The position numbers and the translations under genes were made by a program. Shown piece by piece: positions 49,133 to 52,551 of a DNA stretch of 64,000 bases. Source of the stretch: Bacteriovorax stolpii (GTDB taxonomy: Bacteria > Bdellovibrionota > Bacteriovoracia > Bacteriovoracales > Bacteriovoracaceae). The stretch is from NCBI GenBank assembly GCA_945905815.1, contig CAMDQH010000002.1, positions 1 to 64,000 on the forward strand, read 5' to 3'. A model generated the notes under the pieces. The model was not told the origin of the DNA, searched no databases, and was given only the letters and a program-made list of their open reading frames with translations. The stretch's first letter is position 1; each line of letters begins with the position of its first letter.

Positions 49133-50482
49133 TCAAGGCCCCTTTATGGGGCCTTTTTTTTTTACAAACTCAAACAATTCCACACTTAAAAAGAGTGCCA
49201 GAGAAGAGTAAAAAGTCCAAAGTAAAAAAACCAATAGAGCACCAGCAGCACCATAAAGTGAGTGTAGAGCAATGTTCTTCATGTAAAGACCAGTCAAAAC
49301 ATTGCCCACTAAAAAAGCACCAGTTGCAATGAACGAAATTTGAGCACAATCAGAAAGCTTTTTTTTCTTTGTAGGCGTGAAAAAATAGAGACCCGTGAAA
49401 AGTATAAACAGAACAGAGAAGTTCAACAGGACCTGCACAAAACTTCTCCAGTCCGTATTTTCAAAGCGTGACGCCAGTAAGAAATTGAAGATCGGACTGA
49501 TCACAAGTGAAGTCGCGAATAATAAACACATGGCCATTACCACAAGCATAAGAATTCCTCGTTCTTTCAGTGCTTGCAAGAACGACATGGATTTTGAATG
49601 GTCATAATCTCCATAAATAATGTCTAAAGAATATCTTATTTGCATAAAAACAAATGATGCCAAGAAGAGTAAAAAGCCTAGACCTATTACTCCGGAGATA
49701 GACCCCACATCGACCCTATTCTTGAGATTATCAAATATAAGTTGAAGTGTTTGAGAAGCGCCAGGGGCCACAAATGCAACCTGTTCGAGAATCTTAAGCT
49801 GTAAATCTTCACCAATTAAAGAAGTAATACCCAACAAGATGAGAAGAAGTGGCGCAAGACCTAAAGCTGCATAATAGGCAATGGATGAGGAAAGAAGAAA
49901 TAAATTATGGCGACTGATACGTTTGTGAAAGGCATGTAGATTAGGGATTAGGCCCTTTTTTTTTTCTGAATTTTCCATTCCCAAATACTGTTCTTTATAC
50001 TTCAAATAGGACTCATAATGGTGCGAGACTCGCTCGATTTCTTCTGGGGTTAATGGTCTCTCTACCACGCCAGGCCGGCCCTTAATCAAACTTCCCGGAG
50101 GAAATTTTTTGCCAGGAGAGACCAAAGTTCCAGCAGCTACTAGTGAGTTATCACCAATTTCTGCTCCATCCAAAATAATCGCCCCCATTCCAATCAAGCA
50201 GCCATTACCTATTTTACATCCATGAAGAACAACACTATGGCCAAAAGAGGTATTTTCACCAATCGTAAGATCATTGAGTTCGGTCACATGAAACATACAC
50301 ATATCCTGAACGTTAGTATTTTTACCGATACGAATAATATTTACATCAGCACGAACAACAGAATTGAACCAGATACTCACATGATCACCTAAGATGGCAC
50401 GGCCTATGACCTTGGCCCCGTCAGCTACAAATACTCTTTCCCCAATTTCGGGCGAATATTGAAGATATGGCGACACTTTCAT
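49133..50482 (-). CDS. Apparent fusion of gamma-carbonic anhydrase-like and YihY/BrkB-like domains
   Basis: Residues ~1-170 form a left-handed beta-helix of the gamma-carbonic anhydrase/PaaY type with three zinc-ligand histidines in MFHVTELND and GHSVVLHGCKIG (H65, H82, H87). Residues ~195-449 form a six-helix YihY/BrkB-like inner-membrane domain (SSSIAYYAALGLAPLLL, YSLDIIYGDYDHS, YGAAGALLVFLLWTFYSS). Exactly at the junction (E173-K176) lies a run of ten A (49956-49965). One base more or fewer ends the first domain within a few codons, so two genes or slippage are possible. A possible second start is the ATG at 49978 (MENSE). Confidence 0.72.
   Translation of the reverse strand: MKVSPYLQYSPEIGERVFVADGAKVIGRAILGDHVSIWFNSVVRADVNIIRIGKNTNVQDMCMFHVTELNDLTIGENTSFGHSVVLHGCKIGNGCLIGMGAIILDGAEIGDNSLVAAGTLVSPGKKFPPGSLIKGRPGVVERPLTPEEIERVSHHYESYLKYKEQYLGMENSEKKKGLIPNLHAFHKRISRHNLFLLSSSIAYYAALGLAPLLLILLGITSLIGEDLQLKILEQVAFVAPGASQTLQLIFDNLKNRVDVGSISGVIGLGFLLFLASFVFMQIRYSLDIIYGDYDHSKSMSFLQALKERGILMLVVMAMCLLFATSLVISPIFNFLLASRFENTDWRSFVQVLLNFSVLFILFTGLYFFTPTKKKKLSDCAQISFIATGAFLVGNVLTGLYMKNIALHSLYGAAGALLVFLLWTFYSSLALFLSVELFEFVKKKGPIKGP
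49135..49163. terminator. Terminator shared by convergent speA and the fusion gene
   Basis: AAGGCCCC and GGGGCCTT form an 8-bp stem with loop TTTAT, followed on the plus strand by ten T. It ends speA. It overlaps the last codons of the fusion gene, which encode GPIKGP. Confidence 0.85.
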
Positions 50483-50485
50483 AAA

Positions 50486-51574
50486 TTAGCCTCTCAAAAT
50501 CGCCAGGACATCGGAGTCCTGAGGAAAAAAATGGGGAGCAAGAACTTGTATTTTCCCCCCCTGGTTCATCACTTCTTCGGCGAGTAAATTTAAAATATCT
50601 ACTGAATGTTGTTTTTTTAATGCTTTTTTATGAATTTCAAATTCACCAGTTTCAAAACTAATTTTTCCATAAACCTTGCGTTCAGTTGGTAAAACTAACT
50701 GAGCAACTTTACCCTGCATTGTGGCCTGAACGATTTCTCCCAAATCAGAGATTAATCGCTTGGAAGACACCATTCTCATAAGACGCTCTTTAAATTTTAC
50801 TGAATAAAAGTCCATCACGGAATAGCGAAACATTTTACATTTCTCTAAAATTTCCACACAAGTTTTCTCATGAAAATCTTCTTGAATATGAGAAATGACT
50901 GAATTGGAATGAGAGAAGGACTTTAAAAAAATATCTTTTGTATCCTTTAGTCCAGTGACCAAAATAGGAATGGAGTCGTAATGTGTGAGATCCAGTACTT
51001 TCTGAGCAATAGACTTTAAGGCCTGAATTGATTTATAAGGAATTAGGCCCACGTGATTAGGGGAAAATAAACGGGACTTCATATCAATCGAAAATTGATC
51101 AAACTCATATTGCTGAATGATCTCCAGATGCTGAAAATCACCACGGTAAACTTTTATGTCGTAGAGAGAAACATTCACAACAAGATATTCAGGGTTTACA
51201 AAAAGTTCTTCTAAAAGGGGCCTGACGTAGAAGCTGTTACCTATGATGCAATAGGATTCAACTGTCGTTTCCAGCGCTATGTAACCTTGAAGGTCTTCAG
51301 AAAGAAAAAAACCATATGCTTTTTCAGGATGGTTTTTTAAAATTTTAATTATATTGGAATTATTTTTTTCCAATAATTTTGCAAGCGATGATTTTCCTCG
51401 CAAAGTTAACTGAAGTTGCATGTCGGAAAGGAAGGGTTCTAGCTCGACAAGATCCGCCTTGTGAGGTTGAAAAAAGCTTAATGTCGTGCCAGATTGAGAA
51501 TGGAATAACAACTGGTTAAGATTTATTGGTTTCAATTTTTGACCCTCATGGTCTAGAAAACGGCATGTACTCAT
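50486..51574 (-). CDS. baeRF-type bacterial release-factor-like protein
   Basis: A 362-residue protein resembling bacterial archaeo-eukaryotic release-factor (baeRF) families. The middle has ESYCIIGNSFYVRPLLEEL and YEFDQFSIDMKSRLFS, and the C-terminal third GEIVQATMQGKVAQLVLP, ERKVYGKI and LNLLAEEVMNQGGKIQVL matches the eRF1 domain 3-like fold. Such proteins are predicted to act on ribosomes, perhaps in stalled translation, without direct proof. The ATG at 51574 avoids overlap with the divergent ROK gene; a longer frame would collide with it. No good ribosome site is seen. Confidence 0.72.
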   Translation of the reverse strand: MSTCRFLDHEGQKLKPINLNQLLFHSQSGTTLSFFQPHKADLVELEPFLSDMQLQLTLRGKSSLAKLLEKNNSNIIKILKNHPEKAYGFFLSEDLQGYIALETTVESYCIIGNSFYVRPLLEELFVNPEYLVVNVSLYDIKVYRGDFQHLEIIQQYEFDQFSIDMKSRLFSPNHVGLIPYKSIQALKSIAQKVLDLTHYDSIPILVTGLKDTKDIFLKSFSHSNSVISHIQEDFHEKTCVEILEKCKMFRYSVMDFYSVKFKERLMRMVSSKRLISDLGEIVQATMQGKVAQLVLPTERKVYGKISFETGEFEIHKKALKKQHSVDILNLLAEEVMNQGGKIQVLAPHFFPQDSDVLAILRG

Positions 51575-51612
51575 TATAGCCGAGAGCACAGTTTCATGAT
51601 AGCGTTTTGGCC

Positions 51613-52551
51613 ATGAAGAACAAGCAAATTGCCTTTGGTATTGATATCGGTGGGACGAATACAAAAATGGGTATTTTTGATTTAGAAGGTAAACTTCTGA
51701 GCTTCAAGACTATACCCACTGCAAAGATAGGTGACCCTGCGCTTTTCATTGAGCAGTTAGCTCAGGAATCTCAGCAAATGCTTAATAGCGAATTGGAAAT
51801 GAAGTTAGGTGACAAAAATATCGTGGGTTTAGGTGCTGGCGCCCCAATGGCCAACTATTTTACCGGTTCAATTGAGCATGCGCCAAATCTGGGTTGGACA
51901 AATGTCCCACTTAAAATACTTTTCGAAAAATATTTTCTCTGTCCATCAGTTATTGAAAACGACGCTAACCTCGCAGCAGTAGGCGAAAAGAAATGGGGAT
52001 CAGGCAAAGATCTAACTGATTTTGTTCTTATCACTCTAGGAACTGGCGTAGGAACTGGGCTAATTCTAGACGGGAAACTCTATCGCGGCTTTAATGCTTT
52101 AGGAGCTGAAGGTGGACACATCATTATCCCTCATGAAAAGAAACGTCTTTGCTCTTGTGGTGGTATGAATCACCTTGAGAGTTTTTTATCTGCAAAAGGA
52201 ATCAAGGAAACAATTTCGGAGCTCACCCACGAAGAATGGACCATTGAAAAACTTGGAACTTTATTTAGAAGTGGTGATTTAAAAGCGACAGCAATAATAA
52301 ATCAAATAGCAACTGAACTTGCGACAGGCCTCGCCTCTATGGGTGTTTTGTTTGGTCCACAGGCATTCATTATTGGTGGTGGAGTTTCTAAACTTGGAGA
52401 CACGTTCAATCAAGTCGTTCAAAAGAAATTGGATGAGCACATTCATTTTTCGTTAAAAGGAAAAATTAAAATTCTTGCTGCGACCTTGTCTTCAGACAAG
52501 GGTGCTATCTATGGTGGAGCCGCACATATTTTTGATGAGGTTTCAAAATAA
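51613..52551 (+). CDS. ROK family sugar kinase (glucokinase-like)
   Basis: A 312-residue ROK protein. FGIDIGGTNTKMGIFD (phosphate 1), DANLAAVGEKKWGSG, TLGTGVGTGLILDGKL and GGHIIIPHEKKRLCSCGG are clear. The zinc motif normally reads CxCGxxGCxE, but here GMNHLE replaces the third cysteine with His, which may still bind zinc. No DNA-binding domain, so a kinase not a repressor; glucose is the likeliest substrate. It overlaps the next gene by one base. Confidence 0.9.
   Translation: MKNKQIAFGIDIGGTNTKMGIFDLEGKLLSFKTIPTAKIGDPALFIEQLAQESQQMLNSELEMKLGDKNIVGLGAGAPMANYFTGSIEHAPNLGWTNVPLKILFEKYFLCPSVIENDANLAAVGEKKWGSGKDLTDFVLITLGTGVGTGLILDGKLYRGFNALGAEGGHIIIPHEKKRLCSCGGMNHLESFLSAKGIKETISELTHEEWTIEKLGTLFRSGDLKATAIINQIATELATGLASMGVLFGPQAFIIGGGVSKLGDTFNQVVQKKLDEHIHFSLKGKIKILAATLSSDKGAIYGGAAHIFDEVSK

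Follow-up and report, generated by a model that had tools for sequence, protein, structure and literature searches.

The window, by which we mean the whole 64,000-nucleotide stretch of DNA analysed here, carries on its minus strand a frame of 449 codons (50482-49133) without interruption. Profile matches on both sides confirm the original prediction that this single frame encodes a gamma-carbonic anhydrase followed by a membrane protein of the YihY/BrkB family. The anhydrase domain (residues 1-167; 49982-50482, minus strand) was delimited by profile and structure matches, with residues 3-170 matching the gamma carbonic anhydrase profile NF050158 at 1e-49. Although the whole domain is covered, the score of 168.5 bits lies below the equivalog cut-off of 250, and strict NF050158 equivalog status is not claimed. 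The closest solved relative is 4mfg (6e-45), and Cam (1thj) is matched as well. His65, His82 and His87, together with Arg44, Asp46 and Gln59, are invariant in all six of the fused proteins described below; we take these six residues to be the equivalents of the Cam active-site residues. The hexapeptide beta-helix, the three metal-binding histidines and the Arg, Asp and Gln of the active site expected of a gamma-carbonic anhydrase are all present, and the enzyme is assigned to the CamH/YrdA kind (NF050158, PF00132). It resembles that type in having a full-length hexapeptide domain with these residues invariant, but the CamH/YrdA-type enzyme is normally a free protein, whereas here it is fused to a membrane protein.

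The YihY/BrkB domain (residues 191-438; 49169-49912, minus strand) was identified by hydropathy and by a match to Virul_fac_BrkB/YihY (PF03631) at 7.3e-36, with 124.6 bits against a curated cut-off of 33.7 and coverage of profile positions 2-253 of 259. It is a full-length membrane domain like those of the YihY/BrkB family (PF03631, TIGR00765), but it has no N-terminus of its own, and the fused type forms its own clade. The segment ahead of the first membrane helix is basic, with six Lys or Arg residues against two Asp or Glu. Under the positive-inside rule, the basic flank of a membrane helix lies on the cytoplasmic side, and the anhydrase is therefore predicted to lie in the cytoplasm. An AlphaFold model of the fusion, built from six sequences, had a mean pLDDT of 46.8 and was too poor for a fold search. 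Upstream of the anhydrase lies a gene (50486-51664, minus strand) that resembles the baeRF / AOC03_06830 family ribosome hibernation factor with 78 bits, below the cut-off; the two genes are probably in one operon.

The junction that separates the anhydrase from the first membrane helix reads TCA GAA AAA AAA AAG GGC CTA ATC on the minus strand. Its ten consecutive A (49965-49956) sit precisely between the two domains, as had been claimed, and the 3' end of the run contains an A_AAA_AAG heptamer in the zero frame (49955-49961, minus strand), which is a dnaX-type -1 frameshift motif. Frame simulation agrees with the earlier reading that either 9 or 11 A would lead to a TAA and a stand-alone anhydrase. 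Loss of one A (or gain of two) leads to the TAA at 49950-49948 and a product of 177 amino acids, and gain of one A (or a -1 ribosomal shift) leads to the TAA at 49943-49941 and a product of 180 amino acids. Overall, run lengths of 8, 9, 11 or 12 A give an anhydrase of 177-180 amino acids, and 10 A (by frame also 7 or 13) gives the fusion. The same simulation in the A10 genes places the stop after two codons when one A is removed, at the same distance in five of five genomes, and after five to seven codons when one is added; stops so near in both shifted frames are found at just 2-5% of the codon positions in these genes. The slipped products of one relative (G021) are shorter, at 162-165 amino acids, because its anhydrase has a 15-residue gap. 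This gap (L011, G021:C126) lies close to codon 21 of the fusion and, relative to all the other anhydrases, removes nearly one beta-helix coil in frame; it is either a real deletion or an assembly collapse. An in-frame ATG (49976-49978, minus strand) had been suggested as a start for the membrane protein. Comparison with relatives does not bear this out: the codon specifies a Met that is conserved in the C-terminal tail of the anhydrase. Unfused relatives, which have YihY in another frame, share this Met, and the fused gene of G025 does not; the ATG is not a demonstrated YihY start.

The junction was compared across 26 genomes of the genus, which are draft assemblies, mostly metagenomic where named (Bacteriovoracaceae); the genome of the window (G000) is 3.0 Mb in 141 contigs. 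Three states were detected. In the majority of the genus, the anhydrase and yihY are separate genes, adjacent or overlapping, with yihY in the +1 frame and provided with its own start. The fused state is found in six genomes, with A10 in the genome of the window, G014, G016, G019 and G021, and A8 in G025; the comparison that had been proposed as a check thus returned the same fusion in five other genomes, four of them with A10. The third state, with A9, is limited to G006 and G024. No yihY lies beside the anhydrase in G001, G003 and G004. Outside the genus, no anhydrase-YihY fusion was detected at E < 1E-45 among 369 genomes of the phylum, and the carriers of the fusion are a small group of freshwater Bacteriovoracaceae.

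In a tree of the YihY sequences, the copies from fused genes and those from the A9 genomes form a single clade (100/100), within which the A9 pair adjoins G016 (94/96), and the YihY of unfused relatives belongs to a different clade. Directly downstream of its fused gene, G014 has a second, separate yihY (L083, G014:C55) that groups with the unfused clade; the fused copy is thus probably a distinct paralogue or lineage, and a duplication that preceded or accompanied the fusion is suggested. G025 has an A8 run and lacks the final AAG, yet its gene is still fused, so the tract is dispensable or weaker in this genome.

A run of ten A is not in itself remarkable in the genome of the window, which has about 20 such sites, roughly nine of them inside ORFs. 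The recurrence of exactly A10 at the same junction in five of the six fused genomes, however, is far beyond chance. These five genomes carry the string GAA AAA AAA AAG GG exactly. When their genes are aligned by codon, GAAAAAAAAAAGGG is the sole invariant block of at least 8 nt, and synonymous distances between the fused genes are near saturation. Excluding Met and Trp, 21 of the 202 columns conserved at the amino-acid level are codon-identical; the four E-K-K-K columns are all among them (4/4), and the Lys and Glu columns outside the tract are codon-identical in only two of 15. On codon usage, GAA AAA AAA AAG is expected for E-K-K-K with p=0.106 per genome, or 1.3e-5 for five if they are independent, a figure that overstates independence, as the fused genomes are related by descent. 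For comparison, three further A10 tracts within coding sequences of the window's genome, in genes read from their sequences as RecG, an RpoH-like sigma factor and TetR, were compared with their orthologues in the same relatives. All three are broken, in 10 of 10 orthologues, where the longest A run is 2-6 at a protein identity of 68-88%. Long runs are also scarce in coding DNA generally. In the 464 kb of this genome sampled for a codon-shuffle test, A9 runs were observed 7 times against 21 in synonymous shuffles, runs of A10 or longer 3 times against 12, and T9 runs once against 10, so that coding A9 and A10+ runs are depleted 3-4 fold (z about -3.4). These comparisons argue that the tract is kept by selection at the nucleotide level.

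The A9 genomes provide what we regard as the strongest evidence for a slippage site. In both G006 and G024, the anhydrase frame reads TCA AAA AAA AAG ACC TAA, with the stop two codons past the run, and yihY is open in the -1 frame relative to the anhydrase. There is no ATG, GTG or TTG in the YihY frame before the first membrane helix in either genome; that frame opens just 18 nt before the CTA codon 3' of the tract in G006, and 54 nt before it in G024. YihY is intact at full length in G024, and in G006 it is intact across the 95 codons held by the contig, which ends inside yihY. The two YihY sequences are 52% identical, with a dN of 0.38 and a dS of about 3 (near saturated). An untranslatable gene would not be so constrained, and YihY in these genomes therefore appears to be under purifying selection and to be expressed. 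With one more A, or if the ribosome shifts by -1, anhydrase and YihY are again read as one fusion, and among the run lengths tried just 10 A (or 7) achieves this; apparently, YihY is made in the A9 genomes solely via a slip at the tract. A run-length artefact was considered and rejected, since the genome-wide A9:A10 run counts (154:17 in G024 and 131:13 in G006) resemble those of other genomes and give no sign of run-length truncation. A role for the tract as an internal promoter element was also rejected, as in the A9 genomes no start codon follows the tract ahead of the first membrane helix, and a consensus scan gave no promoter-like site on the minus strand at this place.

It is likely, in our assessment, that selection maintains the tract as a programmed slippage site within this fused gene of the chromosome, giving both a free and a tethered enzyme. 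Unslipped decoding of an A10 gene would produce a carbonic anhydrase tethered via YihY at the cytoplasmic side of the membrane. Slippage, most likely by RNA polymerase adding or dropping an A and less likely by a -1 shift of the ribosome on A_AAA_AAG, would bring the slipped products to a stop within 2-7 codons, yielding a free carbonic anhydrase of about 177-183 amino acids (162-165 in G021). In the A9 lineage the default would be inverted, with the free enzyme made by default and the fusion by slippage. With somewhat less assurance, though still on the favourable side, the poly-A tract can be viewed as a switch that sets the ratio of free to tethered anhydrase, the A10 and A9 lineages having opposite defaults. 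The size of the slip is not predictable from sequence; slippage in vivo and its rate, RNA polymerase as the agent, and a function for both products are inferred. The original proposal of transcriptional slippage to free and membrane-tethered forms stands in its main part, as the tract is kept as nucleotides and the A9 relatives need a slip, but its choice of RNA polymerase is favoured rather than proven.

The comparative criteria of Baranov et al. ask for a long run, for a genome that avoids runs of this kind, and for homologues that differ in sequence but preserve both the run and the ORF organisation; depletion of long coding runs serves them as the sign of an organism in which runs slip (PMC1088944). 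Each of these features is present here. A coding homopolymer of at least 9 A or T is found in the window and four relatives (A10) and in two more (A9), with A8 in G025; the A9, A10+ and T9 counts point to selection against long coding runs; and G006 and G024 supply the organisation on the Baranov list, with an A9, an anhydrase stop, and YihY in the -1 frame without a start.

The same two products could come from another agent, namely -1 programmed ribosomal frameshifting at A_AAA_AAG, which would release the anhydrase on its own in A10 genomes and produce the fused protein in those with A9. This is a live alternative that the original prediction did not name, and while we think it unlikely, it is the most serious of the rival explanations. 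A heptamer of the X_XXY_YYZ form lies in the zero frame, as A_AAA_AAG is in phase in seven of eight genomes (the five with A10 and both with A9), leaving G025 as the one without it. This heptamer is very shift-prone in E. coli, a property linked to its single tRNA-Lys (PMC5009743), and the sole tRNA-Lys found in the present search, among 28 tRNAs on an incomplete list, is tRNA-Lys(UUU). However, there is no consistent downstream hairpin or upstream SD-like element (fold z -1.6 to +1.5); a strong SD-like element, GGAGGA upstream of the tract, is found just in G014 and G024. In addition, 7 nt would suffice for a ribosomal shift, yet 9-10 A are kept, and the stop that closes the one-A-fewer frame so early, at a constant position in all five A10 genes, would have no role. 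RNA-polymerase slippage on poly-A requires the run alone. The length of the run beyond the heptamer, together with the one-A-fewer stop, makes slippage by RNA polymerase perhaps twice as probable as -1 ribosomal frameshifting; it is favoured but not proven.

A simpler explanation is a plain fused protein with a lysine linker, in which AAA AAA AAG is incidental and the A9 genomes represent assembly errors or decayed genes. An E-K-K-K stretch by the first membrane helix suits a positive-inside topology and could be favoured for that alone, AAA and GAA are preferred codons, and G025 retains the fusion with a shorter run. We nevertheless consider this improbable, given codon identity in five genomes at near-saturated synonymous distance, control tracts that are broken, and the avoidance of long A runs in coding DNA. 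Assembly error or decay also fits poorly with two different A9 genomes that agree and have common flanks, with run counts that show no length bias, and with purifying selection on their YihY.

Phase variation at the DNA level, with replication slippage toggling the fusion between cells, is very unlikely. A10 is long enough to mutate, and A8, A9 and A10 all occur in the clade, but the states follow the tree and do not form a random mix of 9, 10 and 11: five divergent genomes share A10, and the two with A9 are sisters. Moreover, the A9 state has its own flanks, common to G006 and G024, and is tied to these flanking substitutions (TCA..GACC versus GAA..GGG) instead of being a bare one-base toggle. 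Least credible of all is the alternative raised earlier, that the window tract is misread (true length 9 or 11) and the genes are separate and overlapping as in most members of the genus, since the fused frame recurs in six genomes with the same A10 in five, unfused YihY has another arrangement (+1 frame, own ATG) and belongs to another clade, and the true A9 genomes have no start codon in the YihY frame.

Of the known systems, tssM1 of Citrobacter rodentium, in which transcriptional slippage at an A11 without ribosomal stimulators is proven (PMC4256274), is similar in having a chromosomal poly-A run, two length variants of a membrane protein, no stimulators nearby and a second species that does likewise (PMC4256274). 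It differs in that the long form of TssM1 is obtained by slippage past a premature stop, whereas the A10 gene would be long by default with a short form that is a complete soluble enzyme; the A9 lineage would have the tssM-like polarity. E. coli copA likewise yields a membrane protein that begins with a soluble domain and, through a frame shift near the domain border, the soluble domain alone, but its products are a copper ATPase and a putative chaperone, its mechanism is ribosomal, and no shared ancestry is claimed (PMC5009743). With dnaX, the tract shares the heptamer (E. coli, ribosomal) or the kind of homopolymer (Thermus, transcriptional slippage) and a shortened second product, but the dnaX products are clamp-loader subunits, whereas here an enzyme would come in tethered and free forms. 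E. coli dnaX has frameshift stimulators, for which there is no consistent counterpart at the tract described here.

To date, many of the slippage genes reported in bacteria have been IS elements, secretion-system genes or dnaX. If the slippage reading is correct, the present gene would be a metabolic enzyme whose membrane tether is set by slippage, and a related lineage with the opposite default would provide comparative evidence that is rare where slippage shortens the product. Tethered anhydrase may take part in CO2/bicarbonate chemistry at the membrane, and the free form may do so in the cytosol. No established function was found for YihY, nor was any paper found, in the literature searched, that joins gamma carbonic anhydrase with YihY; the poorly understood YihY/BrkB family would gain carbonic anhydrase as a partner, and with it a connection, open to testing, with membrane pH or CO2/bicarbonate. 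Annotation pipelines could label the A9 genes as broken despite the selection on them.

Two other sites with long A runs were noted in the same genome. A second A10 tract in the window (49154-49163) was rejected as part of the slippage system: it forms the T-tract in the terminator of speA, and relatives do not keep it as A10. The YihY stop codon lies at the hairpin of this terminator, and the element is therefore common to two convergent genes. Elsewhere in the genome (L077, G000:C3:45300-49300), a 206-amino-acid ORF contains two such tracts, A10 and A11, separated by 228 nt, and is possibly another slippage gene.
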